Shown here: positions 20,004 through 43,792 of the stretch, one piece after another
Layout: each line of letters begins with the position of its first letter
Position numbering within the stretch: position 1 is the stretch's first letter
Source of the DNA: Myxococcus hansupus
Lineage (GTDB): Bacteria; Myxococcota; Myxococcia; Myxococcales; Myxococcaceae
Reading direction: 5' to 3'
DNA: 64,000 nt
NCBI RefSeq assembly: GCF_000280925.3
Contig: NZ_CP012109.1
Location: 9,212,001 to 9,276,000, forward strand
Translations under genes and position numbers: made by a program
Notes under the pieces: generated by a model
What the model was told of the DNA's origin: nothing
Databases searched by the model: none
What the model saw: only the letters and a program-made list of their open reading frames with translations

Positions 20004-20330
20004 CAGACTGTGAGACGCGGGCAATTCAGACGCCGAGTTGGGTCCGGCTGGCGACACCGGCTGCGAACACGCAGGAAGTTGAGAAGATCCTAGCGACGGT
20101 GTTGCCCACGCGCAATCCCGCGGCCTGCGGGGTGTGACGCGCGCGGACGGTGCGACGCCGTGAGTCAGTCTGCCCGCACTCTCCACTCCCGGACATACCA
20201 CTTGGGAGGGAGAGCGCATTGGGAACGTTCGTAGGACAAGGCGCCTTGTGCCTGTCGCTCGACGGCAACCAGAATCCAACCCCACGTGTCTGTTCGAGAG
20301 AGCGGGCCCGTGCGCGGTGGGGGGAGTGCG
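20004..20330. other. Divergent intergenic region upstream of cas3
   Basis: This 327-base region lies between the provisional HEAT gene start and cas3 and should hold the cas operon promoter. No convincing -35/-10 pair can be named. It contains two palindromes (see the separate entry) and the cas3 ribosome site GGGGGGAG just before the ATG. Long frames crossing it show no coding character. Confidence 0.6.
20224..20249. promoter_or_regulatory. Two palindromes upstream of cas3, candidate operators
   Basis: GAACGTTC (20224-20231) and the perfect 14-bp palindrome ACAAGGCGCCTTGT (20236-20249) lie about 82-107 bases before the cas3 start. Their position in the only sizeable gap upstream of the operon fits a regulator-binding site. 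This is inference from symmetry alone. Confidence 0.35.
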
Positions 20331-22547: not shown

Positions 22548-22568
22548 GACCCGCTTCAGGAGGTGTCG

Positions 22569-23228
22569 ATGACATCCACGGCAGACAGACGTTTTCGCGT
22601 GAGGGCTCGAGGACCCGTGGCGTGCTTCACGCGGCCCGAGATGAAGGTCGAGCGCGTCAGCTACGAGGTGATGACGCCCTCGGCGGCACGAGGGGTGCTG
22701 GAGGCCATCCTGTGGAAGCCGGCCATCCGCTGGCACATCCACGAGATCGCCGTGCTCGCGCCGGTGCGGTGGACCAGCTTCCGCCGCAACGAGGTCAACA
22801 GCAAGGCCACGGTGGGCAAGTTCGACTACGCGGCGGACGAGGACCGGGCGCAGCGGAACACGGTGGCGCTGCGGGACGTGGATTACGTCATCACCGCGTC
22901 CTTCACCCTGGTGCCCGGCAAGACGGGCCCCGAAGACAACGCGCGCAAGTTCGAGGACATGTTCGAGCGGCGCCTGGAGCGGGGCCAGTCCTTCCACGCG
23001 CCCTATCTGGGCTGCCGTGAGTTCGCGGCCCGGGTGGAGCCCGCGGAGCGTGGCCTGCTGCCGCACGAGTCTGGCCAGGGGCGCAGGCCGCTGGGCCTCA
23101 TGTTCTACGACTTTGTCTTCGACGTTCCCGGTGAGCCGGTGCGGCCCGAGTTCTTCCAGGCGTTCCTGGAGGACGGCGTGTTGCGCGTGCCGCCTCGGGC
23201 GCAGGTGCTGGGTGGGGGTGTCCCATGA
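22569..23228 (+). CDS. cas5: Type I-C Cas5d pre-crRNA endoribonuclease and Cascade subunit
   Basis: The 219-residue product matches Cas5d: RARGPVACFTRPEMKVERVSYEVMTPSAARGVLEAILWKP contains the family's RAMP-type beta strand, and the R-W-x-I-x-x-I-x-V segment follows. In I-C systems, which lack Cas6, Cas5d cuts the repeat at the base of its hairpin and caps the crRNA 5' handle. The ATG at 22569 is chosen because a perfect AGGAGG ends five bases before it; a GTG at 22563 overlaps that site. Its stop overlaps the cas8c ATG (ATGA). Confidence 0.95.
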   Translation: MTSTADRRFRVRARGPVACFTRPEMKVERVSYEVMTPSAARGVLEAILWKPAIRWHIHEIAVLAPVRWTSFRRNEVNSKATVGKFDYAADEDRAQRNTVALRDVDYVITASFTLVPGKTGPEDNARKFEDMFERRLERGQSFHAPYLGCREFAARVEPAERGLLPHESGQGRRPLGLMFYDFVFDVPGEPVRPEFFQAFLEDGVLRVPPRAQVLGGGVP

Positions 23229-24973
23229 TGTTGACGGCCCTGAATGACTTTGCGCGCGAGCGAGGGCTCACGGATGACCCGTTGTACGAGGTCAAGCCCG
23301 TGGACTTCTTCGTCCGCATCAGCGCGAAGGGGAAGTTCGTCGCGCTGGAGAGCACGGCGGGAGAAGACGGGCGTGGCAAGCCCATGCCAGTCCCCCGGCT
23401 GCCGCAGCGCTCGGTGAACATCGCGGCGGGCTTCTTCGCGGACAACCCGAAGTATGTCCTCGCCTACGAGAAGGAGGAGCCCAAGACGAAGGCGGGTGGC
23501 GTGGAGAAGCGCCTCGCCCGGCTGGAGGCCTTCTTGAAGTCGGTGCGTGAGGTCGCCGCGGAGACGAAGGACCCGGAGGCCCGGGCTGTTGAGGCCTTTC
23601 TCGCGAACGAAGCGGAGCGGCGCAAGGTCCTGGCGGAGCGGGACGCCGAGGAGTGGACCGGCTCCGAGATGCTCGTGTTCGTCGTCGGTGATGCCACGAC
23701 CCCCGTGCATCAGAACCCCTGGGTGCGTGCTTGCTGGGCGAGACGTTCGGGAGAGCAGCGCGCGCAGGGCCGGAAGGCGCTGTGCCTGGTGACGGGCAGG
23801 GAGGGCGTGGTGGCCGTCACCCATCCCAAGTTGAAGAATATCCCGGAAGCGCAATCGTCTGGCGCGGCCCTGGTGTCCTTCAACGCGCCCGCGTTCTCGT
23901 CGCATGGCTTGGAGCAGGGGGACAACGCCCCCATCTCGCAGGAAGCCGCGCTGGGCTACGTGTTGGCGCTCAATGACATGCTCCGGCGGACGGAGCAGCG
24001 CCGTTTCCGGCAGGGCATCCAGTTGGCGGATGGCTCGGTGATGGTGTTCTGGACGCGTGCGTCCGCGTCGGAGGAGAGCCTGCTGCTGTCGTGGGCGGAC
24101 CCGACGGAAGCGGACCTCCAGCGCTTCGCTGAATCGCCGCTGCGAGGACTGGAGCCCGGGAAGCTGGATGACCGGGCCTTCTACGCCGTGACGCTCGCGG
24201 GCAACGCGGGCCGTGTCGCGGTGCGCGACTGGTTCGAGTCTCGTGTGGGCGAAGTGAAGCAGAACATCCGTCGCTACTTCGAGGACCTGCGCATCGGCAA
24301 CGCGCCCGCCGGGCCGATTCCTGTCTATCGCCTGCTCAAGGCCGTGGAGGCGCCCTCGGGACGTGGTCTGTCACCGGACGTCGCCACACGAATGTTCGGG
24401 GCGGCGCTTCGAGGCCAGCCCTTTCCGCGCCAGCTCCTGGCGGCCTCGCTGGACCGGTTGCGCCTGCCGCCTTCCGACGAACGGTTCGAGCGCGAGCAAC
24501 TCCGGCTCCGTGTCGCGCTCATCAAGGCCACCCTGCTGAGGCTCCCTCGAAGTGGAACCGCTCCCCTGGAGGTCACTGTGTCATTGGACAAGAGTAACGA
24601 CTCACAGCCTTACGTGCTCGGCCGCCTTTTCGCCGTCCTGGAGCGGTTGCAGGGCGCGGCGCTGAAGGACCTCAACGCCACCATTCGCGACCGTTACTTT
24701 GGCGCCGCGTCTCGGAACCCCGTCACGGTCTTCCCTCGGTTGATTCAGCTCTCCGTCCACCATGCCTCCAAGGCGGGGGAGAACGGCAGGTGGCTGGAGC
24801 GAGTGAAGGGCGAAGTGATGGCGCTGCTGCCGTCCGAATCTCCGTTCCCGCCTGTACTCGACCTGAAGGACCAGGGCCTCTTCGCAGTGGGCTACTACCA
24901 CCAGCGCGAAGCGTTCTTCACGAAGCGAGAGGCCACCGCGACTCCGGCTGAAGCGGAAGCGTCCTCCACCTGA
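23225..24973 (+). CDS. cas8c: Type I-C Cascade large subunit Cas8c
   Basis: The 582-residue product has the features of Cas8c/Csd1: N-terminal [13 protein letters not shown], the [14 protein letters not shown] strand, and the conserved [28 protein letters not shown] segment. In I-C effectors it recognises the PAM, positions the non-target strand and recruits Cas3; an internal start can also yield a small subunit (Cas11c), which may happen here. Translation is coupled to cas5 through ATGA. Confidence 0.95.
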
Positions 24974-25011
24974 AGCCTCACTGCCTCCACACCAATCCCA
25001 GAGAAAGCGCC

Positions 25012-25926
25012 ATGACTGAACTCAAGCAGCGTCACGACTTCGTCCTGTTCTTCGATGTGTTGGATGGAAACCCCAATGGAGACCCCGATGCGGGCAATCT
25101 GCCGCGCATCGACGCGGAGACGGGCCACGGGCTCGTCACGGATGTGAGCCTGAAGCGGAAGGTGCGCAACTTCGTCCTGCTCACGCAGGAGGGGAAGCCT
25201 GGGCTCGACATCTTCGTGAAGGAGAAGGCCGTCCTCAATCAGCGCATCGCGGACGCGTACAAGGGGCTGGGCATCGACCTGAGCGAGAAGCCGTCCCGCG
25301 CTGAGGACGGAAAGAAGCGGAACAAACCGGGCGAGGCTCAGGGCTCCGAGGTGGAGAAGGGCCGCGCGTGGATGTGCAAGACGTTCTTCGACGTCCGCAC
25401 CTTCGGCGCCGTCATGTCCACGGGGCCGAACGCGGGGCAGGTCCGCGGGCCGATGCAGCTCACCTTCGCGCGCTCGGTGGACCCCATCGTGTCGCAGGAG
25501 CACTCCATCACCCGCATGGCCGTGGCGACGGAGGCCGAGGCCGAGAAGCAGGGCGGCGACAACCGCACCATGGGCCGGAAGAACACAGTGCCCTACGGGC
25601 TCTACCGCGCGCATGGCTTCGTCTCGCCGCACCTGGCGAAGCAGACGGGCTTCGGCACGGCGGACCTGGAGATGCTCTTCCAGGCCTTCACGCACATGTT
25701 CGAGCTGGACCGCAGCGCCGCGCGGGGACTCATGTCCATGCGCAAGGTGGTCGTGTTCAAGCACGGCTCGGAGCTTGGCAATGCGCCGGCCCATGCGTTG
25801 TTCGACCGGGTTCATGCGGACCGCAAGCAGCGGGACAAGCCGGCTCGGAGCTTCTCCGACTACACGGTGAGCGTGGACAAGGCGGGGTTGCCCCAGGGCA
25901 TCGAGGTGCTGGAGTTGGTGGGATGA
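25012..25926 (+). CDS. cas7: Type I-C Cascade backbone Cas7
   Basis: The 304-residue product is Cas7c/Csd2-like: [23 protein letters not shown] is the hallmark N-terminal segment, followed by [12 protein letters not shown] and [21 protein letters not shown]. Several copies polymerise along the crRNA to form the Cascade backbone. The gene starts 38 bases after cas8c, and its stop overlaps the cas4 start. Confidence 0.96.
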
Positions 25927-26567
25927 GTCCGGACCGCGAGACGTGGGTGGCGCTGTCCGCGCTCCAGCACCTGCTGTACTGCGAGCGGCAGGCCGCGCTC
26001 ATCCACGTCGAGCGGCAGTGGCGGGAGGACGTCAACACCGCCTCCGGCCGGTTGCTCCATGAGCGTGTCGACCTGCCGGGGCACGACGCACGGCCGGGGC
26101 GAAGGGTGGAGCGTGCCGTGCTGCTGGGCTCGCAGCGGCTGCGCGTGTCGGGCCGCGCGGACCTGGTGGAGTACCAGCGGGAGCCCACGTTACCTTCGGG
26201 GTGGCGTCCCTTCCCGGTGGAAGTGAAGCGCGGTCGGCACAAGGCGTTGGACGCGGACGCCGTGCAGCTCTGCGCGCAGGCGCTGTGCCTGGAGGAGATG
26301 CACGGCGTCGAAGTCCCCGAAGGTGCGCTTTTTTATGGCACGCAGCACCGTCGTGAGGCCGTGCGCTTCGACGCCCGTCTCCGTCTGCGCACGGAGGAGG
26401 CCATTGCCCGAATGCACGCGCTGCTCCAGCGGCAGGAGGTGCCCGCGGTGCCGCGTGCGCCCCGGTGCGACAAGTGCTCACTGGAACCGCTGTGTCTGCC
26501 CCACGTGACAGCGGGGCAGCGGCGCGTTCACGACCATCTGTCGCGGTGGGTGGATGAGGAAGGTTGA
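25923..26567 (+). CDS. cas4: CRISPR adaptation exonuclease Cas4
   Basis: The 214-residue product has the RecB-type nuclease motifs GRADLVEY and PVEVKRGR (about residues 78-103). It has the four-cysteine Fe-S site: Cys20 in LLYCERQ and three cysteines in [10 protein letters not shown] near residue 180-190. Cas4 trims prespacers and selects the PAM and orientation with Cas1-Cas2. The start is the ATG of an ATGA overlap with cas7. Longer frames upstream overlap cas7 and are not real. Confidence 0.95.
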
Positions 26568-26579
26568 CCGGAGGAACGC

Positions 26580-27608
26580 ATGACGACCGCGCTGAACACG
26601 TTGTTCATCACCGCCGAGGGCACGCGCCTGAACAAGGAGGGCGAATGCGTGGTGGTGACGGTTCAAGAGCAGAAGAAGGCCGAGGTCCCGTTGCGGCACC
26701 TTCGCTCGGTGGTGTGTCTGACGCGGGCGTGGTTGACGCCAGAGTTGATGGAGAGCTGCCTGGAGGCGGGTATCCATGTCTCCTTCTTTGGGATGACCGG
26801 GCGTTTCCTCGCGCGGGTGGAGGGCGTGCCCGGTGGCAACGTGTTGTTGCGGCGACAGCAGTACCGGGCGGCGGATGATGCCGCGCGCTCACTGGCCATC
26901 TCCCGGGCCATGGTGTTGGGGAAGTTGGGGAACGCGCGGGCGTTCGTGCTGCATGCGCGGCGTGACGCGGCGGCGGAGCGGCAGGAGGTCCTCTCGGAGA
27001 CGGCGCGGCGCCTGTCGGAGCATCTTCGCGCGCTGGTTCGGGCGGAGGAACTGGAGCAGGTGCGAGGGCTGGAGGGCATCGCTGCGCGCGACTACTTCGA
27101 GGCCTTTCCCGCGCTATTGAAGAAGAGCGCCAGTGGCTTCGAGTTCGACGGCCGTAACCGTCGCCCTCCGAGGAACCCGCTCAACGCGATGCTCTCGTTT
27201 GGTTATGCGCTGCTGGCGCAGGATTGCGCGGGGGCGCTCGCGGGCGTGGGATTGGACCCGGCGGTGGGGTTCCTGCACGAGGACCGTCCCGGACGTCTGT
27301 CCTTGGCGTTGGATTTGATGGAGGAGTTCCGCGCGCCGGTGGTGGACCGGCTTGTCTTCTCGCTGGTGAACCGTGGGCAGTTGAAGCTGGGGGACTTCCG
27401 GACCGAGTCCGCGGGAGCGGTGCTCCTCAAGGATGACGCGCGCAAGACGTTCCTGGTGGCGTATCAGGAGGCGAAGCAGGTGAGCGTGCGGCACGCATTC
27501 CTGGGGCAGGAGACGACCTGGGGCATGGCGCCTCACCTGCAAGCGCTGTTGCTGGCGCGAAACATCCGAGGTGAGCTGGATGGCTACCCTCCCTTCGCGA
27601 TGCGCTGA
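26580..27608 (+). CDS. cas1: CRISPR integrase Cas1
   Basis: The 342-residue product is Cas1 of the I-C type. It has the N-terminal beta domain (NTLFITAEGTRLNKEGE), the LEGIAARDYFEAF helix with the metal-binding Glu, and FLHEDRPGRLSLALDLMEEFR, which carries the catalytic His and the last acidic residues. With Cas2 it inserts new spacers at the leader end. A strong GGAGG site lies five bases before the ATG. The stop overlaps the cas2 ATG (TGATG). Confidence 0.97.
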   Translation: MTTALNTLFITAEGTRLNKEGECVVVTVQEQKKAEVPLRHLRSVVCLTRAWLTPELMESCLEAGIHVSFFGMTGRFLARVEGVPGGNVLLRRQQYRAADDAARSLAISRAMVLGKLGNARAFVLHARRDAAAERQEVLSETARRLSEHLRALVRAEELEQVRGLEGIAARDYFEAFPALLKKSASGFEFDGRNRRPPRNPLNAMLSFGYALLAQDCAGALAGVGLDPAVGFLHEDRPGRLSLALDLMEEFRAPVVDRLVFSLVNRGQLKLGDFRTESAGAVLLKDDARKTFLVAYQEAKQVSVRHAFLGQETTWGMAPHLQALLLARNIRGELDGYPPFAMR

Positions 27609-27907
27609 TGCGTAAGCTCACGGTGTTGATTTGTTACGACGTGCGGGTGTCGGACCCTCAGGGGGCTCGGCGCCTGCGCAAGATTGCACGGGCCTGCAAG
27701 GACCATGGCGTACGGGTGCAGTACTCCGTCTTCGAGTGCGTGCTGGAGCCCAAGGACTGGGTCGTCCTGCGCGCTCGCTTGCTGGCGGCGTTCGAGTCGG
27801 AATGCGACAGCCTGCGCTTCTATTTCCTGTCGGAAGACGATGCCCGGAAGACGGAGCATCATGGTGCCAGGCCACCGCTGGACGTCGAGGGACCGCTGGT
27901 CCTGTAG
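27608..27907 (+). CDS. cas2: CRISPR adaptation protein Cas2
   Basis: The 99-residue product has the ferredoxin-like Cas2 fold: LTVLICYDVRVSDPQGARRLRKIARACKDHG, with the metal-site Asp in YDV, and YSVFECVL. It forms the central dimer of the Cas1-Cas2 integration complex. It is the last cas gene, and the leader begins directly after its stop. Confidence 0.97.
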   Translation: MRKLTVLICYDVRVSDPQGARRLRKIARACKDHGVRVQYSVFECVLEPKDWVVLRARLLAAFESECDSLRFYFLSEDDARKTEHHGARPPLDVEGPLVL

Positions 27908-28089
27908 CCGCCCGCGAACCGCCCCCGGTGGTCCCTCCGCCGAGGGTTCGCGCTCTTTGAAATCCCGAATAGTTTTCGAAGGTTGGAGGATGCGGAGCGG
28001 GCGCCGATGGCCCGCGTGCCGGGCTCCCGAGGCAGGTTCGCGAATCGTGGTCAAATTCCGTAGGAAGAACGGTAAGTTGGCGGGGCAGG
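27908..28089 (+). promoter_or_regulatory. CRISPR leader
   Basis: This 182-base region between cas2 and the first repeat contains a more A/T-rich stretch (27955-27985, including TTGAAATCCCGAATAGTTTT) that may hold the array promoter, and a CGAACC...GGTTCG inverted repeat near its start. The first repeats are all canonical while those at the far end are decayed, which confirms this is the leader side where new spacers enter. Confidence 0.75.
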
Positions 28090-31000
28090 GTCGCTCCTCG
28101 TGAACGCGAGGAGCGTGGGTTGAAACCAGCCGCGCAGGGACGGGCAGCCGCAGATGATGGTCGCTCCTCGTGAACGCGAGGAGCGTGGGTTGAAACGGCT
28201 CGGTGCGACTCCAGAAGTTGCAGGGCGAGGTCGCTCCTCGTGAACGCGAGGAGCGTGGGTTGAAACGACCCGAACCAGTTGGTTGCGCAGGCCGAGCAGC
28301 GTCGCTCCTCGTGAACGCGAGGAGCGTGGGTTGAAACAACGTGGCTCTCAGCTTGCGCAAGCGGGAGAGCGGTCGCTCCTCGTGAACGCGAGGAGCGTGG
28401 GTTGAAACGTTGCCGGGCCTGCCGCCACGGACGCCGTGCTGGAGGTCGCTCCTCGTGAACGCGAGGAGCGTGGGTTGAAACGCCCGACGCGGGGCATCGA
28501 ACGAGGGCACCTGGAGTCGCTCCTCGTGAACGCGAGGAGCGTGGGTTGAAACAACGGCACTCCCATCCCGCCAGCGTCGCCGGACGTCGCTCCTCGTGAA
28601 CGCGAGGAGCGTGGGTTGAAACTTCGCGGGCGGGGTGGTGGTGGGCACCGCGGGCGTCGCTCCTCGTGAACGCGAGGAGCGTGGGTTGAAACATCGCTTC
28701 GTCTCCGTGGTGTTCGGTGTTCTGGCCGTCGCTCCTCGTGAACGCGAGGAGCGTGGGTTGAAACTCCGGACTGCGTTGAACAACCTCCGGGCCTGAGTCG
28801 CTCCTCGTGAACGCGAGGAGCGTGGGTTGAAACCGCCCCCGGCATCCCCCGCGGCCTCGGCGGCGGCGTCGTCGCTCCTCGTGAACGCGAGGAGCGTGGG
28901 TTGAAACACCAAGCTGAACTCACAATCCAGGAGCTGCTCCGTCGCTCCTCGTGAACGCGAGGAGCGTGGGTTGAAACCCGAAGCCTCCCCCCTTCGGTGG
29001 CGGAGCGCCCGTGTGTCGCTCCTCGTGAACGCGAGGAACGTGGGTTGAAACGGGCAAGGCGCCCCTGCGAGGCCCCACGGTGGGCCGTCGCTCCTCGTGA
29101 ACGCGAGGAGCGTGGGTTGAAACCTGCATGGCCGCCACCAGCGGCGCGAGGTAGCCGCGTCGCTCCTCGTGAACGCGAGGAGCGTGGGTTGAAACAGCCC
29201 GACGATTGACCAGGACAACCCCACTCGGGCCGTCGCTCCTCGTGAACGCGAGGAGCGTGGGTTGAAACGTCGACCAGCCCTTGCACGCCCAGGTGCTCGC
29301 CCGGTCGCTCCTCGTGAACGCGAGGAGCGTGGGTTGAAACATCTCGGCGTCGAGGAGTTGCTCGCGCGACAGGTCGTCGCTCCTCGTGAACGCGAGGAGC
29401 GTGGGTTGAAACTCGCGGTAGGTGCGCACGCGCCGGGTGCTGTTGGGTCGCTCCTCGTGAACGCGAGGAGCGTGGGTTGAAACTCCGCGTTGGTCGAGAT
29501 CGCGCCGAACGTCGAGGCGTCGCTCCTCGTGAACGCGAGGAGCGTGGGTTGAAACCTCGTCCGCCATTGCTTGCTGCCTTTCGTGCGGTGTCGCTCCTCG
29601 TGAACGCGAGGAGCGTGGGTTGAAACCTGCTGCCGTGCTTTCGCCTGGAGGCTGCTCAAGTCGCTCCTCGTGAACGCGAGGAGCGTGGGTTGAAACCCCA
29701 GCTCGCCGGCGGCGCGGTACAGCTCGGCGTCGCTCCTCGTGAACGCGAGGAGCGTGGGTTGAAACTAGAGGGCGGGTATACGCACGTTAAGCCTGTCTGG
29801 TCGCTCCTCGTGAACGCGAGGAGCGTGGGTTGAAACCTGACGGGAGCAACGGGGTTGCTGTCCATGGCGGTCGCTCCTCGTGAACGCGAGGAGCGTGGGT
29901 TGAAACTTCGGCATGTTGGCGGACGGCCTGGGGCTGTAATGTCGCTCCTCGTGAACGCGAGGAGCGTGGGTTGAAACTGGGTCAAGCAGCGTCACGCCCA
30001 GGACCCCATCGTCGCTCCTCGTGAACGCGAGGAGCGTGGGTTGAAACACGAGGAAACCGCGCTCTTTGCGCATCCAAGCCCGGTCGCTCCTCGTGAACGC
30101 GAGGAGCGTGGGTTGAAACAACATCGGCACGCTCGAAGCCCCCAAGAACACCGGTCGCTCCTCGTGAACGCGAGGAGCGTGGGTTGAAACCCGCGCAACC
30201 TCTACTGACAACGGCGCGCCCTGGTGTCGCTCCTCGTGAACGCGAGGAGCGTGGGTTGAAACGCGGTCACCGTCGAGCACTCGCGCCAGCTCGTTGTCGC
30301 TCCTCGTGAACGCGAGGAGCGTGGGTTGAAACAATGGGCAGCGTCTACCTCTGCGGGGTGATGGAGTCGCTCCTCGTGAACGCGAGGAGCGTGGGTTGAA
30401 ACCTCTCCAGCCTGCTCCCGCGCGAGCTCTACGTGGGCGTCGCTCCTCGTGAACGCGAGGAGCGTGGGTTGAAACGATTACCGTCGGCCGCCCTGAAGAC
30501 GACGAAGTGTCGCTCCTCGTGAACGCGAGGAGCGTGGGTTGAAACAAGGTGGAGAGGATTCGCAAGAGCCCGCCATCCGTCGCTCCTCGTGAACGCGAGG
30601 AGCGTGGGTTGAAACGTCCCCTCGTCGAACACCTTCACGAGATTCTCGACGTCGCTCCTCGTGAACGCGAGGGGCGTGGGTTGAAACAAGTAGTCGCACA
30701 CTTGATCGATGGTCCACAGGCATGTCGCTCCTCGTGAACGCGAGGGGCGTGGGTTGAAACTGGCGGGCGGTGGCGGAGGCAACGCGGGCCCACCTGTCGC
30801 TCCTCGTGAACGCGAGGGGCGTGGGTTGAAACCCGGCCGCGGAGCGGGTGTTGGTGCCGTTGGTGGTCGCTCCTCGTGAACGCGAGGGGCGTGGGTTGAA
30901 ACAGCAACTCCAGCTTCGAGCGGCTCCACATGGACGGTCGCTCCTCGTGAACGCGAGGGGCGTGGGTTGAAACTTCACCCTGTGAGGCTCGACGTGGACT

Positions 31001-33103
31001 GGTGCTGTCGCTCCTCGTGAACGCGAGGGGCGTGGGTTGAAACAAGGGGCTGACGGGTGCGAACCCCGCGGGCCTCGTCGCTCCTCGTGAACGCGAGGGG
31101 CGTGGGTTGAAACCGGTCGAGCTTGCACAGGGAGACCTCACTCGCTGAGTCGCTCCTCGTGAACGCGAGGGCGTGGGTTGAAACCAGATTGACGACCGCA
31201 GCCATGGGGAGTGGCTCGTCGCTCCTCGTGAACGCGGGGGCGTGGGTTGAAACTTGCCCTTCTCCGGACCCTCGAAGGTCTCGATGAAGTCGCTCCTCGT
31301 GAACGCGAGGGGCGTGGGTTGAAACCGCCAACCGTTGAGGTCGAGCCCAGCCGCTTCGCGAGTCGCTCCTCGTGAACGCGAGGGGCGTGGGTTGAAACGC
31401 GTACGCCTCCACGTTGGGCGCAATCTCCACGAGTCGCTCCTCGTGAACGCGAGGGGCGTGGGTTGAAACCTTTCGGAACCGCGCAGCCTGCCGAACGCTG
31501 AGTCGCTCCTCGTGAACGCGAGGGGCGTGGGTTGAAACGCATGGCTGAGACGGGCGAGTATTTTCCGGGCAAGTCGCTCCTCGTGAACGCGAGGGGCGTG
31601 GGTTGAAACGTGCATGTCCCCGCTGAGTCTCTCATCGCTGCCTAGTCGCTCCTCGTGAACGCGAGGAGCGTGGGTTGAAACCTGCACGATAGCATCCTCA
31701 AGACGCCGGGTGCTGGTCGCTCCTCGTGAACGCGAGGAGCGTGGGTTGAAACTCCAGCTTGTCGTGCTTGCCCACCATATGGACCAAGGTCGCTCCTCGT
31801 GAACGCGAGGAGCGTGGGTTGAAACTCCCGCGCACGATAGCCCAGCTCCAGCCGCCCGGTCGCTCCTCGTGAGCGCGAGGAGCGTGGCTTGAAACGTACT
31901 GGTGGATTCGCTGCTGGAGCGCGACGCGCAGCGGTCGCTCCTCGTGAACGCGAGGAGCGTGGGTTGAAACTCTGACGAGGCGCCCCGCGAGTGGCTCCTC
32001 CCGTCGCTCCTCGTGAACGCGAGGAGCGTGGGTTGAAACGCCACACCTCCAGCGCGCGCACGCCACTGCTGGTGTCGCTCCTCGTGAACGCGAGGAGCGT
32101 GGGTTGAAACTGCATGATGCCGTTGCGCAACTCTGCTGTGAGCGGTCGCTCCTCGTGAACGCGAGGAGCGTGGGTTGAAACTGGGCGCTGACGGAGGCAG
32201 TGGGGAACATCGAGGTCGCTCCTCGTGAACGCGAGGAGCGTGGGTTGAAACAGCAAACGACTGGACCGACAAGCCAACCATCGCAGGTCGCTCCTCGTGA
32301 ACGCGAGGAGCGTGGGTTAAAACGCGTTCTACTACGGGCCCTGGCAGTGCAAAGCCCAGCCGCTCCTCGTGAACGCGAGGAGCGTGGGTTGAAACAATCA
32401 GGATGCGGAGGCTCAAATCTTGGCCTGGGGGCGCTCCTCGTGAACGCGAGGAGCGTGGGTTGAAACCGCTCGGCATGGAGTACTGCGGCAGGCCGTGCAG
32501 GTCGCTCCTCGTGAACGCGAGGAGCGTGGGTTGAAACAGAGATGTGTCGCCTGGGGGCACGGAACTGCTCTGTCGCTCCTCGTGAACGCGAGGAGCGTGG
32601 GTTGAAACGCGCGGAACGGGGCGCTCGTGCAGGTGGTCAAGGTCGCTCCTCGTGAACGCGAGGAGCGTGGGTTGAAACCGCGCGGCGAATCTCTACTCTG
32701 GGCACCGACTCAGTCGCTCCTCGTGAACGCGAGGAGCGTGGGTTGAAACAAAAACGCGGGTTACATGAGCGGCCTCGCGGTGGAGTCGCTCCTCGTGAAC
32801 GCGAGGAGCGTGGGTTGAAATCGATGCGGAAGGGGACTCGTACGAAGTTCACGCAGTCACTCCTCGTGAACGCGAGGAGTGTGGGTTGAAACTGGGACAA
32901 GGCGAATGCGCTGGAGTTGCTGTCGAAGTCGCTCCTCGTGAAAGTGAGGAGCGTGGGTTGAAACAACCAGGACGCCGAAGCTCAGATTCTGGCCTGGGTC
33001 GCTCTTCGTGAACGCGAGGAGCATGGGTTGAGGCCGCGTCGAGGTGCAGTGCTCGTCGGGCACGTCGTCGCTTCTCGTGAGCGCGAAAAGTGTGGGGCGA
33101 ACC
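28090..33103 (+). CRISPR. Type I-C CRISPR array: 70 clear repeats plus one decayed repeat, 70 spacers
   Basis: The consensus repeat is 37 nt (GTCGCTCCTCGTGAACGCGA followed by GGAGCGTGGGTTGAAAC). Positions 3-11 pair with 18-26 in a 9-bp hairpin with loop TGAACG, leaving the 11-nt tail TGGGTTGAAAC, the length of the 5' handle produced by Cas5d. Spacers are 32-38 nt, mostly 33-35. Repeats 37-50 (from 30651 to 31609) all carry A23 to G; repeats 44 and 45 are one base short. Repeats 67-70 show end decay, and repeat 71 (33067-33103) is heavily diverged. Minus-strand open frames across the array are artefacts of stop-free repeats. Confidence 0.98.
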
Positions 33104-36280: not shown

Positions 36281-37447
36281 ATGTCCAGCTCCTTCGAATC
36301 CGCTGCCTCCTCCGTTCGTGATGCCCTGACTGGCGCGGGGAGGGGACTGGTCGAACGCGAGGCGATGGTGGAGCTCATCACGCTCTCCGCGGTGGCGGGG
36401 GAGCACCTGCTCGTCGTCGGGCCGCCGGGCACCGCGAAGAGCGAGGCCGTGCGCCGCACCGCCCGCGCCCTGGGCGGCGCCTACTACGAATACCTCCTGG
36501 GCCGCTTCACCGAGCCCTCCGAGCTGTTCGGTCCGGTGGACCTGCGCAAGCTGCGCGAGGGGCTCGTCGAAACGGTGACGCAGGACATGTTGCCGGAGGC
36601 GGACGTCGCCTTCCTCGACGAGGTGTTCCTCGGCTCCACCGCCATCCTCAACACGCTGCTGGGCATCCTCAACGAGCGCACCTTCCGGCGGGGCCACACG
36701 CGGATGCAGTGCCCGCTGCGGGTCTGCGTGGGCGCCTCCAATGCCTTGCCCGAGGACGCGTCGCTGGCGGCCTTCGCGGACCGCTTCCTCGCTCGCATCT
36801 TCGTCGAGCCCGTGCCGGACTCCCGGTTGGAGGAGCTGCTCGCGGGGGGCGCCTCGCTGTGGGACGAGGGCTCGGTTCCCACCGCGTCGCTGGCGTCCCT
36901 GGATGTCATCGCCCAGGTGGCCCGCGAGGCGGACCTGTCGGAGGTGCGTCCGCACCTGGCGCATGCGCTGCGCGCGCTGCGGACCGCGGGGGTCATCCTC
37001 TCCGACCGCCGCGCGGTGAAGGTGCAGAAGCTCATCGCCGCCGCGGCAGCGCTCGCGGGACGGCGCACGCCGGGCACGGCGGACCTGTGGCCGCTCGTGT
37101 ATGCCATTCCCACGAAGGAGGGGCAGGCGCTCGCTCGGGACGTGCTGCGGGATGCGCTCGCTGGAACGGAGAACGCGGCCTTGCCCGCCGCGGCGCTGGA
37201 GGCCAGCGCGGGCCCCCTGGCGCGGGCTCGGCGCATCGCCAACGCGGGGCAGCAGTTGCTCGCGGAGCGGCCCTCGGCGGAGGGGCCGCTCGCTGCCTGG
37301 CGGCTCAAGCTGGAGGGCGTGGCGCGGGAGATGGACGCTGGCTTCTCGGCCGAAACCCTCCCCGATGACTTGAAGGTGCTGCGCGCGGAGCTGGCGAGCG
37401 TGCTCGCCGCTGGTTCCGAAACGCCAGGGGTTGAGGTGACGGTGTGA
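36281..37447 (+). CDS. MoxR-family AAA+ ATPase of a MoxR-vWA-beta-propeller system
   Basis: The 388-residue product has Walker A GPPGTAKS (47-54), Walker B VAFLDEVF (109-116), a sensor segment VCVGASNALPED and an arginine-rich FADRFLARIFV. The pattern YLLGRFTEPSELFGPVDLRKLREG is characteristic of the MoxR/RavA clade. MoxR ATPases act as chaperones that remodel or activate partner vWA proteins. The partner here is probably encoded two genes downstream. The ATG is placed at MSSSFESAASS; an upstream frame lacks family features. Confidence 0.92.
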   Translation: MSSSFESAASSVRDALTGAGRGLVEREAMVELITLSAVAGEHLLVVGPPGTAKSEAVRRTARALGGAYYEYLLGRFTEPSELFGPVDLRKLREGLVETVTQDMLPEADVAFLDEVFLGSTAILNTLLGILNERTFRRGHTRMQCPLRVCVGASNALPEDASLAAFADRFLARIFVEPVPDSRLEELLAGGASLWDEGSVPTASLASLDVIAQVAREADLSEVRPHLAHALRALRTAGVILSDRRAVKVQKLIAAAAALAGRRTPGTADLWPLVYAIPTKEGQALARDVLRDALAGTENAALPAAALEASAGPLARARRIANAGQQLLAERPSAEGPLAAWRLKLEGVAREMDAGFSAETLPDDLKVLRAELASVLAAGSETPGVEVTV

Positions 37448-37640
37448 TGGCGCCAGCAGCGAGGGATGAAGCCATGGCCTGCGCGCCGCCGCGAGCAGAG
37501 GTGACGGTGCGATGATGGCGTCAGCGAGAGGCGAAGCCTTGGCCCGCGTGCCGCCGCACTCGCACCTGCGAGCAAAGGTGTCGGTGCGGTGATGGCCTCA
37601 ACGAGGAACGAAGCCACGCTGCACTGGCACCCTCGCTCCG
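37433..37640 (+). repeat. Imperfect tandem repeats at the moxR / next-gene junction
   Basis: Three related units begin at 37433, 37498 and about 37575. Each has GAGGTGACGGTG (or a close form), then a GTGATG-like start, then GCG(C/T)CAGC...GAAGCC and C/G-rich sequence. The third unit is the real start of the downstream gene. The first two look like duplicated copies of the gene junction, pushing apart genes that would otherwise be coupled. Confidence 0.6.
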
Positions 37641-38056
37641 AGCCGCTGGAGCCACTCGCCGTGGTGGGGGAGGGGGCCGTGGCGGTGGCGCTCGCTCGCC
37701 GGGTGCTCGCGGAGGACGATGCTCGGCTCGCCGCCTGGGAGGGCGTCGCGGGGCCGGGGGTGCTCGTGCTGCTGGGGGCCTCGGAGTCCCTTCCGTGGGT
37801 CGATGGCGCCGTGTACCTGGGCCGCGATGCCGACGCGCCCTCGTTGCTGCTGCCCTGCGCGGTGGCGCCGGGTGTGGCGGTCTCGCTGTTGGAGCACGCG
37901 TTCCTCGCGCGTGCCGAAGGTGGCGCGCCGCTCGCGGTGCTGCCCGCGTCCTTGCACCTGGTCAGCGTGGGGGCGGCGCGGAGCGTGTCGCGCACCACGC
38001 TCGTGGCCTGGTTGGAGGAGGGGCAGTCGGGGGTTCCTCCTGGAGACACGCCGTGA
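37592..38056 (+). CDS. Small bpX-type component of the MoxR system
   Basis: The 154-residue product has an N-terminal WHPRSEPLEPLAVVGEGAVAVALARRVL and a central LVLLGASESLPWVDGAVYLGRDADAPSLLLP. From memory this resembles the bpX5 domain that accompanies MoxR-vWA-beta-propeller ternary systems. It is probably cytoplasmic and has no catalytic motif. The start is an ATG directly after a GTG in the third junction repeat. The stop overlaps the next gene (GTGA). Confidence 0.6.
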   Translation: MASTRNEATLHWHPRSEPLEPLAVVGEGAVAVALARRVLAEDDARLAAWEGVAGPGVLVLLGASESLPWVDGAVYLGRDADAPSLLLPCAVAPGVAVSLLEHAFLARAEGGAPLAVLPASLHLVSVGAARSVSRTTLVAWLEEGQSGVPPGDTP

Positions 38057-39882
38057 CGGCCTTGCCCCACGCGCTGCGGCCCTGGGCCGCGACCTTGTCC
38101 CAGCTCCCCTTGGAGCTGGCACTGCACCTGGGGCCCCTGGTGGCCCGGCTGTCCGTGGCGCTCGGAGCCACGCGGGTTCCCACGGAGATGATGGGTGGAG
38201 AGCCGCAAGGGTATGACGGCCTCTCCCGGCGAGGCACCCTCGACCGCTTGCTCGTGAGCGAGTGGCTGTGGGCACTGGAGGACCCCGACGAGCTGGTGCG
38301 CCGCGCCGCCTTCGGTGAGCTGTCCTACCTCCAGCCCTCGTTCCGCCAGCCCCGAAGCGAGAAGCGCATGGTGGCGCTGCTCGACGCCGGGCCGGACCAG
38401 CTCGGGGCGCCCCGCATCGCGCACCTCGCGTTGCTCATCGTGCTGGCCCGCCGGGCCGAAGCCGAAGGCGCCGCGTTCTTGTGGGGCATCCTCCAGGCAG
38501 ACCCCGGCAAGGGGCACTTTCCCGACGTCACCCCCAGCTCGCTGCGCGAGTGGCTGGACGCACGGAGCCTCGAACCGCCCACGGCCGAGCGGCTCGCGGC
38601 ATGGCGTCAGGCGCTCGCGGCCGACACGGATGCGGTGGAGGCCTGGCTCGTGGGCGCACCGCGCCTGTCCCGGCTTCCCGGCGCGGAGACGCTGTCGCGC
38701 GTGGAGATAGCCGAGGTGATGGCGCCCGAGGTGCGCCAGCTCGCGGTGGAGGTGCATCCCATCGCGCGAGGCCCGCGCTCCGTGCTGCTCGACCTGCCGC
38801 CCCCGGCGGACAGCGTCCGCCTGCTCAAAGCGTCGTTCGAGCCGGAGCCGCGCGCGCCCGTCGCCGCGTCGGTGAGGCGGCTCCGGGCGCCTCGCGTGCG
38901 CGCCTTCTCCTTCTCATCGGACGGGCAGCGGTTGATGCTCTTCCATGAGGATGGCGGCGTGGGCGCCATGGCGCTGCCCCAGTCCGCCGGTGCCACCGTG
39001 CCCAACCCGACCCGGATGAAGCCGCTCGACAGGGAGGAGTTCCTGGGCGCGGGCTGGCGTGCCGGCATGGGGATGTTCGTCCTGTGCAGGGGCGCGTATG
39101 GCTATCGCGTTCGAGGCCAACTGCGACGTCTCGGCGTCCGGCGTCAGCCGGCGCACTTCCCTTGGACGATGCGCGACACGGACGTGCATCCACCCAAGCT
39201 CAAGCGAGAACAGTCTCCCGGACGGTTGACGTCCTATTACGACTCACAGGGCCAGTTGTGCCTGCTCTTGTCGGGGCTGGATGAAAACCTCTATCTGTTC
39301 GACCACGTCCGCACCGACCACGCGCTGCGAGTGACCTCCGAGCGCGTGGCCAAGGGCGTCCTCACCGTCGCCACCGTGAAGGACCGGTGCGTCCCCGTGA
39401 TGCGCACCGGGCCGGAAGGCGTGGCGCTCGGGACCGTCGGGATGAAAGAGGTGCGTCAGGTTCCGTTGCCGGACTCAGCGGGCGGGGCCGTCTTCTTCGG
39501 TGCCGCGGAGGGCGGCGTGGGGCACCCGGAGCATGGGTTGCTCGCCGTGAACCAGCGCCCGGGCTTGTGGCACCTGCACCAGCAAGGCACCGCGCGGCCC
39601 GTGCAGCTCGCGTCGGGGCTGCGGGCGGTGGGCGCGGGCGTCTGCCACCCGTCGCGCGCACAGGCCGGGTTGGTGGCGCTCGACTCCGACCAGCGCGCCT
39701 TCTGGTGCGTGGGGCCCCAGAATCAATACAAGCTGACGGTGGCCGAGGCCCGCGTGGTCCACGCGGAGGTCAGTCACGCGGTGCCCGTGCTCGCGTGGCT
39801 CACCGTGGAGGGGGAGCTGGTGCTGTTCCACCTTCGCGAGGAGTCGGTGCTCTACCGCCTCCGCGTCGGAGGTGGGGCGTGA
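38053..39882 (+). CDS. vWA-like plus beta-propeller protein of the MoxR system
   Basis: The 609-residue product starts at a GTG overlapping the previous stop. Residues 1-220 are helical and include ALLDAGPDQLGAPRIAHLALLIVLARRAE (near residue 115), which resembles a divergent vWA MIDAS strand-helix but lacks a clean DxSxS. From about residue 260 the protein turns into beta-propeller-like blades (RVRAFSFSSDGQRLMLFHEDGG, GQLCLLLSGLDENLYLFDHV). It is likely the MoxR client linking ATPase and propeller. The bpX/vWA naming is from pattern memory, not a search. Confidence 0.6.
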   Translation: MTALPHALRPWAATLSQLPLELALHLGPLVARLSVALGATRVPTEMMGGEPQGYDGLSRRGTLDRLLVSEWLWALEDPDELVRRAAFGELSYLQPSFRQPRSEKRMVALLDAGPDQLGAPRIAHLALLIVLARRAEAEGAAFLWGILQADPGKGHFPDVTPSSLREWLDARSLEPPTAERLAAWRQALAADTDAVEAWLVGAPRLSRLPGAETLSRVEIAEVMAPEVRQLAVEVHPIARGPRSVLLDLPPPADSVRLLKASFEPEPRAPVAASVRRLRAPRVRAFSFSSDGQRLMLFHEDGGVGAMALPQSAGATVPNPTRMKPLDREEFLGAGWRAGMGMFVLCRGAYGYRVRGQLRRLGVRRQPAHFPWTMRDTDVHPPKLKREQSPGRLTSYYDSQGQLCLLLSGLDENLYLFDHVRTDHALRVTSERVAKGVLTVATVKDRCVPVMRTGPEGVALGTVGMKEVRQVPLPDSAGGAVFFGAAEGGVGHPEHGLLAVNQRPGLWHLHQQGTARPVQLASGLRAVGAGVCHPSRAQAGLVALDSDQRAFWCVGPQNQYKLTVAEARVVHAEVSHAVPVLAWLTVEGELVLFHLREESVLYRLRVGGGA

Positions 39883-42725
39883 GCGCGGCGCTGAGGCCAC
39901 GGCAGCACGTCCACCGGGGAACGGTGCGCGCCTGGGCGTTCTGGTTCGAGCCAGCGTTGATGGGCGAAGCGGAAGCCCGCCGCCGGATTCTGGCGATGTG
40001 GACCCCCACCGTGTCCGTGCGGGCCGTGGCCGGTGGATATCTTGTGGGCTTGTCCGCCCCGCGTGAGGTGCGGTGCTCCGACGCGCCCGGGTGGGTCCTC
40101 ACGCGGGAGCATGGGGTCCTCACCTCCGCACCGCTGTCCCCGGCCGAGTGGCGGCACGCGAGCCTCCATGAAGGCGCCGGGGTGCTGGTGCTCGGCGGGC
40201 GGGCGCAGGTGTTCTCCGTGGAGGCGCTGCCGCGGGTGAACGTGGCCGCGTGGCTCGACGTGTCGGCGTGGACGTGCGTGGCCGTGAAGACGCTGGCCGC
40301 GCCGCCCCCGCCCGTGGCCGTGCTGGCGCCGGTGCCGGCCCCGTCGCGTGCGCGCTTCGGCGCCAACATTCCCGAGCCCTCCCCCGAGGCCCAGGCGATG
40401 TTCGCGCGCATGGAGGGGCGCGCGCCTCCCCCGAACGTCGCGGCGCATCGCGTGGGATGGTGGGAGCGGCTGCGGGCGCGGTTCGCTCGCGACGGGAGCG
40501 TCCTTCGGGTCGGTCCGGGTGTCGCGCACGGCCCGCCCGGCTGGCTGGCGCGGCTCCGTGCCGCGTTTGCGCTGGGCGGCGCGGGAGGTCCCGCCGACGC
40601 CGGGACACCCGGGCTGCTGGCGCGGTGGCTCGGGAAGCTCCGGAAGCCCGCGAAGGGCACCGTCCCTCGCGCCCTGCCTGCGTCCACGGCCGTTCCGCCC
40701 AAGGGGCCGGGCCCGTGGTCCAGGCTGTCCGGCTGGATGATGCGCAACACCCTGCTGGGCGTCTGGGTCCAGCAGCGCAGGGCGGAGTACATGCGCCGCC
40801 TCCTCGAGATGTTCGAGGAGGGCAATCTGCGCGAGGCGATGCGCCATGCCATCCCGCTGAGCAAGGCGGGGAGTGCGACGGCGCGCGAGGCCTTGGGCTT
40901 GCCCGGTCCGCGGGAGCAGCTCACCCTCCGGTTGGGTCCGAAGGACCCGGCCACGGTGTTCGATGGGGCGCCGGACGTCCTCGCCGCGCTCCAGCAGCGC
41001 TACCGCGAGGCCTTCCGCCGCTTCGAGCGCGAGGGCCGTATCGACGAAGCGGCCTTCGTCCTGACGGAGTTGCTGGGCGCGCACGAGGAGGCGGTGTCCT
41101 TCCTGGAGAAAGCGGGCCGCTTCCAGTTGGCGGCGGAGCTGGCCGAAAGCCGCAAGGTGGCGCCGGGCCTCGTGGTGCGTCAGTGGTTCCTGGCCAAGGA
41201 CGTGGGGCGCGCGGTGGCGGTCGCCCGTCTCAGCGGTGCCTTCTCGGACGCGGTGGCGCGGCTGGAGCGCACGAATTCAGCGGAGGCGCGCGCGCTCCGG
41301 CTGCACTGGGCGGAGACGCTCGCGGCCTCGGGTGACTTCGCGCGGGCCGTCCAGGTGGTGTGGCCGGTGCCCGAGCTCCGGGAGCGGGCGCGGGGCTGGC
41401 TGGAGCGCGGCGTGGCCGTGGGGGGCGCGACGGGCGCGCGGCTGCTGGCGTTCTGGGCCACGGCGTTTCCGGATGGGCTGGCGGCGGTGGGCGCGCGGGT
41501 GCGCGAGCTGCTGGAGGAGGAGGGGCTGGGGCGCGCGACCGAGCGCTTCGTGTTCGGGCTCGCGCTCATGGGCGAGCCGCACTCCGCCCAGCGTGCCGCG
41601 CTGGCGGTGCCCACGCTGCGCGCGCTGCTCCGGGACCGGGCCGCGGGCAGTGCCCGGTTCACCTCGGACCTGGACCTCATCAAGCGCCTGTTGAGTGCCG
41701 CTCCGGATGCCACGCTGAGCACCGACCTTCCGTCCCTCCCCGACTGCGTGCACCCCGCGTGGCGCGATGACCGCTCGCTGCCTCGCATCGAAGCCACCCT
41801 GCGCGCGTCCGAGGCGGGGACCTTCACGCTGCATGACGCGGTGGTGCTGCCCGACGGCCGGCTGCTGTACGCGCTGGGGGAAGCGGGCGCGCGGCTGGTG
41901 CGCGCGGACGGCCGGTTGGTGGCGCGCTTCGACGTGCCGGCCTTCCACCTGGTGCTGTCCCTCCACGGCGACAGGGCGCTGGCGCTCGCGCGGCGAGGCG
42001 ACGTGTGGCGGCTGTCGCGGTTGGACCTGTCCACGCGGCGTGGGGCGTTCTGGTGTGACGCGGCGTTGAACGCCTGGGCGCCGGTGTACGACGGCAGCGT
42101 GTGGTTCGCCTCCGTCGAGAACACGGTGCTGATGGTGGACTCGCTCGCGGCCGACTTCCGGGCGCTCTGGCGGGTGACGGACCTGCCCCTCCGGGTGAGC
42201 GCGATGGCGGTGGACTCCGTCCATCTGAGCTTCCTCGCGGGCTTCCGGGAGCGGTGGACCTATGCGTTGGACCAGGGGCCCACGTTGCGCTCTCGTGTGG
42301 ACCTCCCGTGGGGCGAAGCGGATGCACCCATTCTCATGTCATCCCTGGTCACCGCGGCGGTGACGCCGGATGGCGAGGCCGCCGCGAGGCTGACCGTGGT
42401 GGCGCCGCCCGAGGACATCGCGCGGCGGGCCGTGGTGAGGCCCACCTCCGTCCGCGGGGTCCAGCGGCCCCCCTTCGACAACCCGGCTTGCGAGGACATC
42501 TTCCTCACGGCGTCATGGTGTGTGGAATTGATGCATTCACACGGAGAATGGCAGGCGCAATTGACAGACACACGGGGCGTGTCGCGCGCGGTGCTCACGT
42601 TCCAGGGTGACGTGCGCCCCCAGGTGCGCCTCACGGAGGGCACGCTGTTGGTGTTCGACGGCGCGGGCCGGGGCCTGTGGGTGGACTTGGAGAGCGGCGA
42701 AGTCCGGCACCTGCCCGTGCCGTGA
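39879..42725 (+). CDS. Large helical-repeat/beta-propeller protein of the MoxR system
   Basis: The 948-residue product begins at a GTG overlapping the preceding stop. It has an N-terminal domain (RGTVRAWAFWFEPALMGEAEARRRIL, bpX6-like by memory), a Pro/Ala-rich linker (about 140-270), and an amphipathic helical-repeat region (about 300-600, EEGNLREAMRHAIPLSKAGSATAREAL ... AAFVLTELLGAHEEAVSFLEKAGRFQLAAELAE). A C-terminal beta-propeller-like part (about 640-945) follows. No signal peptide or membrane segment. It is likely the large scaffold of the complex; role unknown. Confidence 0.65.
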   Translation: MSAALRPRQHVHRGTVRAWAFWFEPALMGEAEARRRILAMWTPTVSVRAVAGGYLVGLSAPREVRCSDAPGWVLTREHGVLTSAPLSPAEWRHASLHEGAGVLVLGGRAQVFSVEALPRVNVAAWLDVSAWTCVAVKTLAAPPPPVAVLAPVPAPSRARFGANIPEPSPEAQAMFARMEGRAPPPNVAAHRVGWWERLRARFARDGSVLRVGPGVAHGPPGWLARLRAAFALGGAGGPADAGTPGLLARWLGKLRKPAKGTVPRALPASTAVPPKGPGPWSRLSGWMMRNTLLGVWVQQRRAEYMRRLLEMFEEGNLREAMRHAIPLSKAGSATAREALGLPGPREQLTLRLGPKDPATVFDGAPDVLAALQQRYREAFRRFEREGRIDEAAFVLTELLGAHEEAVSFLEKAGRFQLAAELAESRKVAPGLVVRQWFLAKDVGRAVAVARLSGAFSDAVARLERTNSAEARALRLHWAETLAASGDFARAVQVVWPVPELRERARGWLERGVAVGGATGARLLAFWATAFPDGLAAVGARVRELLEEEGLGRATERFVFGLALMGEPHSAQRAALAVPTLRALLRDRAAGSARFTSDLDLIKRLLSAAPDATLSTDLPSLPDCVHPAWRDDRSLPRIEATLRASEAGTFTLHDAVVLPDGRLLYALGEAGARLVRADGRLVARFDVPAFHLVLSLHGDRALALARRGDVWRLSRLDLSTRRGAFWCDAALNAWAPVYDGSVWFASVENTVLMVDSLAADFRALWRVTDLPLRVSAMAVDSVHLSFLAGFRERWTYALDQGPTLRSRVDLPWGEADAPILMSSLVTAAVTPDGEAAARLTVVAPPEDIARRAVVRPTSVRGVQRPPFDNPACEDIFLTASWCVELMHSHGEWQAQLTDTRGVSRAVLTFQGDVRPQVRLTEGTLLVFDGAGRGLWVDLESGEVRHLPVP

Positions 42726-42729: not shown

Positions 42730-43419
42730 TCAGGCGCCGTTGAACAGGCCCGGCGCCAGGGAGACTTCGCTGGCGGTGAGCCGGCGCTGCGCGTCATCGA
42801 CCTCCAGCACCACCTGCACGCCCTCCACCGTCACCAGCAGGGACGGCGGCGTGCCGGGGAGCGCCATCAACCATGTGGAGGCCAGGGGCAGCTCCGTGCC
42901 CACCAGCTCCGCGGCGCGCAGCAGATGGAGGCGCACCGCGTGGCCCAGGGCGCTGGGCAGCGTGCGCAAGGGCAGGCACACGTCCTCGGGCAGTTGCAGC
43001 GCGTAGGGTTCGGAGGAGGCCCGCGTGGGCAGCTCGGGCAGGCCGCGAAGCTGGGCGCGCAGCGCGAGGTCCATGGCCTCGGGGGCGTGGGGCTTGCGCA
43101 GGTAGCCCACCACACCGTCCAGGGGCGGCTCCTTGCCATTCAGCGCGCCCGAGAACATCAGCACGCCCAGGTGGCGCAGCCGCGCGTTGGTCCGGAGCTG
43201 TCCGTAGAGCTCCCAGCCGTCCATGCGCGGCAACAGCAGGTCCAGCAGGATGAGGTCGGGGTGGCTCGCCCGGGGCCGCGTGCACAGCCAGTCCAGGGCC
43301 TCCTGTCCGTCCGCCGCGTGGGTGACCTGCACCCCTTCTTCGCGAGCGACCACGTCGAGCCGCTCGCGCCAGGCGAGGTCATCCTCGACGAGAAGCATGT
43401 GCTGGAGCGGCCGGGACAT
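42730..43419 (-). CDS. Response regulator with receiver domain and unknown C-terminus
   Basis: The 229-residue product has an N-terminal receiver (HMLLVEDDLAWRERL; phospho-Asp in LILLDLLLPRMDGW near residue 59; YLRKPHAPE). A roughly 100-residue C-terminal domain (SEPYALQLPEDVCLPLRTLPSALGHAVRLHLL) has no DNA-binding signature I recognise. It ends four bases from the convergent MoxR-system gene, so it is not in that operon. Confidence 0.8.
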   Translation of the reverse strand: MSRPLQHMLLVEDDLAWRERLDVVAREEGVQVTHAADGQEALDWLCTRPRASHPDLILLDLLLPRMDGWELYGQLRTNARLRHLGVLMFSGALNGKEPPLDGVVGYLRKPHAPEAMDLALRAQLRGLPELPTRASSEPYALQLPEDVCLPLRTLPSALGHAVRLHLLRAAELVGTELPLASTWLMALPGTPPSLLVTVEGVQVVLEVDDAQRRLTASEVSLAPGLFNGA

Positions 43420-43792
43420 GGTGGAGACCGAAGTGGCGCTTCCTGATAGCTCCGTCCCGGGCGCCGCGCCAGGATTCCGAGGGCTTCCCGTTGGGTGTCG
43501 GACACCCCAGGGCCACGCGTTTCGCCACGCTGGGGGGACGGCGGCACCGGACGCGGCGGTGAATCCCCGGCAGGGGGGCGGCGGGAAACCCGACACGGGG
43601 ACCTTCGACCGTATGACATTGCGCCAGGAGGTCTGTGGGGCGCAGGACATCCTCCCGCCATTCCCCGCAATGTATGCCATCAACGTTTCGGGCTGTCACA
43701 CGCGCGCCGGCGGCGCTATTATCGGCCGGCTCGGCGCGTTCACCGCGGACCGGTGTCTGCCACTCCACAGCGAAGTGAGGGGTCGTCCCCGC
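43420..43792. other. Intergenic region between divergent regulator and small gene
   Basis: No gene with coding character is seen. The region contains the 15-bp palindrome GGGTGTC-G-GACACCC (43493-43507), 74 bases upstream of the response regulator start, and several C/G-rich runs. It should hold promoters for both flanking genes, but none can be pinned down. Confidence 0.5.
43493..43507. promoter_or_regulatory. Perfect 7+1+7 palindrome, candidate operator
   Basis: GGGTGTC and GACACCC are exact inverted repeats around one G. They lie upstream of the response regulator start on the minus strand. Inference from symmetry and position. Confidence 0.3.

Follow-up and report, generated by a model that had tools for sequence, protein, structure and literature searches.

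Within a window of 64,000 nucleotides from the complete 9.49-Mb chromosome of Myxococcus hansupus (contig NZ_CP012109.1, positions 9,212,001-9,276,000; the term always means this whole stretch, to which the coordinates below refer), we analyzed four intact, co-directional open reading frames that occupy positions 36281-42725 of the + strand. Judged by its sequence profiles and structural models, this locus is an intact beta-propeller MoxR-vWA ternary system, a member of the class described by Kaur et al. (2020; eLife 9:e52696; PMC7159879), and it is the sole bpX6 locus of its genome. The four genes are linked, and GTGA overlaps connect the last three (bpX5 and protein 3 at 38053-38056, protein 3 and protein 4 at 39879-39882), just as a first-pass annotation made from the letters alone had read them.

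36281..37447, + strand: bpMoxR AAA+ ATPase, RavA-like, 388 residues (PF20030, 274 bits)
37433..37600, no strand: junction repeats, imperfect 65-bp tandem (TRF, sequence and relatives)
37592..38056, + strand: bpX5 protein, 154 residues (PF19921, 91.5 bits; alignment)
38053..39882, + strand: vWA-like and beta-propeller protein, here protein 3, 609 residues (AlphaFold2 model; present in all related loci)
39879..42725, + strand: bpX6, helical-repeat and beta-propeller protein, a putative scaffold, here protein 4, 948 residues (PF19922, 118 bits; AlphaFold2 model)

A Unit of Four Genes

That the unit has four parts is best supported by its fixed gene order with 4-nt overlaps. In a scan of species genomes we obtained 37 loci, every one with a relative of protein 3, and the order MoxR-bpX5-protein 3-protein 4 on one strand was found in 37 of 37 as far as the contigs allow, the junctions being mostly 4-nt overlaps; the exceptions are a locus in which bpX5 was not recognized (L097) and another that stops at a contig end (L085). 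The loci span Myxococcota, the actinomycetes Planotetraspora and Catellatospora, and Paenihalocynthiibacter, which we take to be an alphaproteobacterium. The same order occurs on megaplasmids of Embleya and Methylobacterium, bpX5 being unrecognized in the latter; these two copies were found with protein 4, and a search with protein 3 found no phage-borne copies. Such conservation of order is far beyond chance, and the genes are thus conserved together, on which the first-pass annotation had staked its assignment.

The 144 bp that separate MoxR from bpX5 in the window consist of imperfect 65-bp tandem copies of the junction between the MoxR end and the bpX5 start. TRF detects them at 37433-37557 (score 166, 80% match, about 1.9 units), and a third partial unit was seen by eye. 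In L062, a close relative, MoxR and bpX5 share a 4-nt overlap, and the separation in the window is therefore probably a derived state. The repeats at 37433-37600 also duplicate the start-codon contexts, and they are possibly a recent slippage product. Elsewhere the gap carries cargo, for example AHSA1 proteins in Corallococcus-type genomes and about 12 kb in G043; we rejected these genes as components of the system, because they vary by genus, several lie on the opposite strand, and distant homologues mostly have no gap. The Archangium-type gap (L043:2832-6147, with equivalents in L042 and L048) encodes a TsiV-like immunity protein, a lipoprotein and an opposite-strand protein of 497 residues; the lipoprotein, which has no Pfam match, may be the toxin partner of the immunity protein. 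The public records titled Comamonas sp. KCTC 72670 (L062) and Klebsiella pneumoniae metagenome-assembled genome (L089) carry Myxococcota-like copies, and their titles look wrong.

Components of the System

The first two proteins were recognized by Pfam, where the cut-off is 27 bits for bpMoxR, bpX5 and bpX6 alike. MoxR has the P-loop GPPGTAKS (residues 47-54), the Walker B motif LDEV (112-115) and the DRF motif (167-169), all invariant in 19 of 19 aligned homologues. Its nearest solved structures by sequence are those of RavA (3nbx/6sza, E 2.6e-38); the NCBIfam RavA model scores 148 bits (E 4e-43) where 681 are required, so that the protein is not a RavA equivalog. A bpMoxR match alone is unspecific, PF20030 being matched in 12 of 14 control genomes, and therefore the class assignment rests on bpX5, bpX6 and the context. 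The bpX5 protein has no PDB relative by sequence.

Protein 3 (AlphaFold2 model of mean pLDDT 81.5) has no accepted Pfam domain; its sub-threshold matches to TilS (19.8 bits, cut-off 21), Herpes_UL3 and DUF1529 were taken as chance. It is predicted to comprise two parts.

38206..38832, + strand: divergent vWA-like region, residues ~52-260 (hhalign to ivWA; invariant columns)
38884..39876, + strand: predicted beta-propeller, residues 278-608, 27 strands, ~7 blades (AlphaFold2; Foldseek/VIA; profile match)

The propeller matches PDB propellers in Foldseek, with VIA Z about 13, and the sequence profile of the protein, independently of the model, matches WD40-type chains with E 1.3e-11. The vWA-like region contains the motifs GYDG...RG..eRLL.sEW...RRAA and a degenerate MIDAS, D111-A-G113. 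In hhalign, residues 52-204 match ivWA, a domain of FtsH ternary systems, with prob 93.5 and E 2.3e-7, and unrelated domain pairs of the operon, used as controls, score prob <4. Most of this signal comes from the GYDG...RRAA flank; the core (residues 95-277) alone has prob 0.8, and its vWA fold is probable, not proven. A PDB search with the whole model was filled by propeller matches and is uninformative on the vWA-like part. In an alignment of 33 homologues D111 and G113 are invariant; because neither DxSxS nor the aspartate of strand 4 is present, metal binding is unlikely, and the first-pass view of a degenerate metal site holds. We also considered bpX5 and the N-terminal domain of the bpX6 protein as duplicates of the vWA-like region, and discarded the idea for want of profile similarity.

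Protein 4 (AlphaFold2 model of mean pLDDT 79.6) is divided as follows.

39897..40406, + strand: bpX6 domain, residues 7-176, with an ordered alpha+beta part at 15-125 (Pfam, AlphaFold2)
40458..40640, + strand: low-confidence (disordered) linker with the copies WWERLRARF (residue 194), WLARLRAAF (222) and LLARWLGKL (246)
40707..40739, + strand: conserved helix motif PGPWSRLSGWM, residues 277-287, at the start of the helical repeats (motif comparison)
40713..41726, + strand: predicted alpha-helical repeat (TPR-like) domain, residues 279-616 (AlphaFold2, alignment)
41787..42710, + strand: predicted beta-propeller, residues 637-944, 27 strands, ~7 blades (AlphaFold2; VIA)

Residues 376-450 are the most conserved part of the protein. 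The propeller superposes on 5oql_A with VIA Z 20.2 and rmsd 3.5 over 268 aligned residues, and from the number of modelled strands the propellers of proteins 3 and 4 would each have about seven blades.

Relation to Known Systems

Kaur et al. defined the class by a MoxR ATPase and a vWA domain fused to a propeller, noted GxxxTAKS P-loops and a subset of vWAs that lack one or both metal-site aspartates, and proposed a conflict role from comparative genomics (PMC7159879). The locus shares the bpMoxR with GxxxTAKS, the degenerate vWA-like region fused to a propeller, a linked bpX protein, and a third protein with a variable N-terminus, helical repeats and a propeller. It is typical of the class, because the class vWA is propeller-fused and degenerate metal sites have already been described. 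The first-pass annotation had named the MoxR ATPase, the bpX-type protein of 154 residues and the whole ternary system correctly, as the bpX5 and bpX6 scores far above cut-off, the P-loop, the two propellers and the joint conservation indicate. Its 948-residue protein of helical repeats and propeller proved to have a bpX6 domain in addition, and propeller folds are predicted in both large proteins by AlphaFold2 and PDB matches. The profile searches that it proposed for the partner proteins recovered bpX5 and bpX6, whereas for vWA the profile comparison gave the ivWA match, driven largely by the flank. What has to be given up is its compact variant lacking a separate vWA gene: the vWA-like region lies in protein 3, fused to the propeller as in PMC7159879.

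In other respects the locus departs from the published description. About seven propeller blades are modelled rather than 'about four'; the bpX6 protein has no transmembrane segment but a repeated amphipathic motif; and bpX5 was present in practically every locus examined, so that the unit behaves as a four-part one. The fixed four-part order, the scarred losses and the motif array, the last two described below, add to the text of PMC7159879, whose source data may already record parts of this.

In Pseudomonas syringae clade 2b-a, genes listed as ravA, bpX5, a '6ND4' protein and bpX6 are consecutive in a region of genome plasticity (PMC9677677). The order and domains are the same as here by that listing; '6ND4' denotes a propeller-rich complex in the PDB, and 6nd4_O is among the Foldseek matches of protein 3. 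The P. syringae genes lie in a plasticity region of one clade, whereas the Myxococcus locus occupies a syntenic chromosomal site. The FtsH ternary system (fvmX7, ivWA, bpMoxR, FtsH) has a related MoxR and a homologous divergent vWA region, but it contains FtsH and fvmX7 and has no propeller or bpX; Pfam found neither FtsH nor fvmX among our four proteins. RavA-ViaA has in common a RavA-like AAA+ motor with a vWA partner, ViaA being replaced here by the vWA-propeller protein. The M. hansupus genome also encodes a separate FtsH ternary system (L107, G000:C1:5154000-5166000; the system at about 5154100-5162000) with FtsH-like, fvmX7, bpMoxR and ivWA genes, as well as a MoxR and a VWA_CoxE-like gene that adjoin an SNF2 helicase and a protein kinase (L106, G000:C1:8922500-8936500).

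A Motif Array in the Linker of Protein 4

The linker (residues ~180-270) contains near copies of the conserved helix motif PG[LW][LFW]xRLxxW. The helix at 277-287 is kept out to L097, where it reads PGMFERLKSWA, and by sequence it is the apparent template of the linker copies. The pattern was first spotted by eye, and a regular expression for it gave 55 matches in the linkers against 2.0 expected. Because discovery by eye biases that test, we also scored the linkers of 27 homologues with a leave-one-out matrix built only from the conserved helix, and obtained 40 matches against 1.8 expected from shuffles; the 6-bit threshold was our choice. The highest count, six windows of which two overlap, is in L064. 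The copying is limited to core Myxococcaceae and one match in L095, and the copies are basic and amphipathic.

A transmembrane-like stretch occupies the linker in all five non-Myxococcota homologues examined, which are actinomycete and alphaproteobacterial (KD19 2.55-2.93). Such a stretch is missing from every aligned Myxococcota homologue (maximum KD19 1.20), and protein 4 of the window has no membrane-spanning segment (maximum KD19 1.32). A membrane-spanning segment in the third protein is a reported feature of the class, which we read as not obligatory. We propose, as a tentative and rather doubtful idea, that the bpX6 scaffold tethers an ATP-powered vWA-MoxR machine to the membrane across bacteria, that in Myxococcaceae an array of amphipathic copies of a conserved docking helix, able to expand, has replaced the transmembrane anchor, and that copy number tunes the avidity for membrane or motor and the trigger threshold. 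Membrane anchoring and protein docking both fit the motif. The copies may instead be peptides on which MoxR or the vWA-like domain docks, so that the avidity of the complex would depend on how many there are, a possibility that we consider unlikely without dismissing it. The match of the copies to a helix conserved out to an alphaproteobacterium argues for docking, as does the fact that vWA domains typically bind extended peptides (PMC7159879); the basic, amphipathic character of the motifs and their location where distant homologues have transmembrane segments speak for an anchor. Docking would rival this single step only, and it can be true together with a role in defence or as a chaperone.

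Inheritance and Loss

Of 96 Myxococcaceae genomes, 60 carry a single bpX6 gene, as do 3 of the 99 others searched in the phylum, and among core Myxococcaceae the locus is syntenic. The usual neighbourhood in most genera consists of genes for an outer-membrane-type protein, a response regulator and a kinase, and the flanking outer-membrane-type gene is common across genera in most of 20 loci examined. Within the genus, G077 has no bpX6 and retains the flanks and a MoxR stump, with deletions that correspond to window positions 36497 to 37036 and 37103 to 42687; G055 carries a decaying copy, with a broken MoxR and remnants of the bpX6 protein; and in a further clade, G060, G069, G070 and G071, the genes are cleanly absent at the same site (G072 was left out of the loss-site comparison). 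The locus has thus been inherited vertically with at least two losses, probably three, and it is dispensable. The clean-absence loci L101, L102, L103 and L105 also lack a close counterpart of the adjacent response-regulator gene (window 42730-43683), which was perhaps lost in the same deletion.

Proteins 3 and 4 have dN/dS of 0.36-0.48, and MoxR 0.13-0.26; the former are thus constrained but evolve faster than MoxR, and also faster than most flanking genes. Between close relatives, residues 841-900 of protein 4 reach dN/dS 0.99. In the nearer comparison dS is raised from bpX5 to bpX6 relative to the flanks, and therefore recombination may contribute.

A Possible Mechanism and Its Alternatives

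Our overall reading, to which we give a probability of about 0.5, is that a MoxR ring, together with a vWA-propeller adaptor, remodels the bpX6 protein as a scaffold close to the membrane, and that the role is accessory and possibly one of defence. The RavA-like MoxR would assemble into an ATP-driven ring, for which the vWA-propeller protein, presumably no longer metal-binding, would be the adaptor. The strictly conserved GYDG/RRAA/D-x-G face of the adaptor may dock on MoxR, bpX5 or both, and its variable propeller may recognize either a target or the bpX6-protein propeller. The bpX6 protein would act as scaffold or sensor, with the conserved helical repeats holding the complex and the N-terminal module placed at the membrane. 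In actinomycetes and alphaproteobacteria a transmembrane segment would hold it there; the Myxococcaceae probably use instead the array of short, basic and amphipathic copies of the conserved helix. Upon binding of a trigger, ATP hydrolysis would remodel, assemble or disassemble the scaffold. Such a role would not be a housekeeping one but accessory, and it could plausibly lie in biological conflict.

Several observations weigh against this reading. The linker motif could bind protein rather than membrane, and profile comparison missed the vWA core when it was used alone. PADLOC-DB 2.0.0 gave for the four proteins only a match of the MoxR P-loop to mad8 (13.6 bits), and no effector domain was found in them. 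Syntenic single-copy inheritance across genera is less patchy than is usual for defence genes. Finally, the literature yielded no biochemical data or experiment on the beta-propeller MoxR-vWA class.

As to function, the anti-phage or altruistic-death defence proposed by Kaur et al., in which the propellers would sense an invader, MoxR would serve as an ATP threshold switch and the N-terminal module of the bpX6 protein as effector, seems to us possible yet unlikely. The class was proposed as a conflict system (PMC7159879), the locus is accessory and repeatedly lost, its propellers evolve fast, as residues 841-900 of protein 4 illustrate, and the same four-gene order lies in a genome-plasticity region of P. 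syringae (PMC9677677). In addition, a complete-looking type I-C CRISPR-Cas system (cas3, cas5c, cas8c, cas7c, cas4c, cas1c) occupies positions 20286-33100 upstream; its array of about 70 units of the 37-bp repeat GTCGCTCCTCGTGAACGCGAGGAGCGTGGGTTGAAAC, the last repeats degenerate, ends about 3.2 kb before MoxR. However, we rejected this adjacency as proof of a defence island, because we saw it in Myxococcus alone and because the two systems are uncoupled: of 27 genomes in the genus, 20 have cas8c, many of them at the same site, and 13 genomes have both systems, seven and seven only one and none neither (P ~0.09, ignoring phylogeny). In most genera the neighbours described above form no defence island, and Pfam matched neither VMAP nor an effector domain in the four proteins. 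A conflict role is therefore unproven, given vertical inheritance, dispensability, the lack of an effector domain and the lack of a match to known defence families.

A chaperone of the RavA-ViaA or CoxD-CoxE kind, activating or assembling a specific enzyme or envelope complex, would agree with the RavA-like MoxR (by the sub-cut-off NCBIfam score and the PDB match given above), with coupled translation and with conserved synteny beside the outer-membrane-type gene in most genera. We nevertheless hold it to be rather unlikely, as the four genes are not accompanied by one for a client enzyme, related species show clean losses, and the propeller proteins evolve faster than most flanking genes. That the M. 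hansupus copy is itself decaying and non-functional is scarcely credible: relatives do carry scars or remnants (G077, G055) and junction repeats do separate MoxR from bpX5 here, but the four reading frames are intact, all ATPase motifs tested are present, and dN/dS is well below 1 overall.

Whatever the role of the proposed MoxR-driven scaffold remodelling, an intact single-copy operon of fixed composition, together with relatives that have lost it cleanly at the same site, provides a convenient test bed for this class of systems. The exchange between a motif array and a transmembrane segment offers a concrete hypothesis on where the machine may be located and how it may be tuned.

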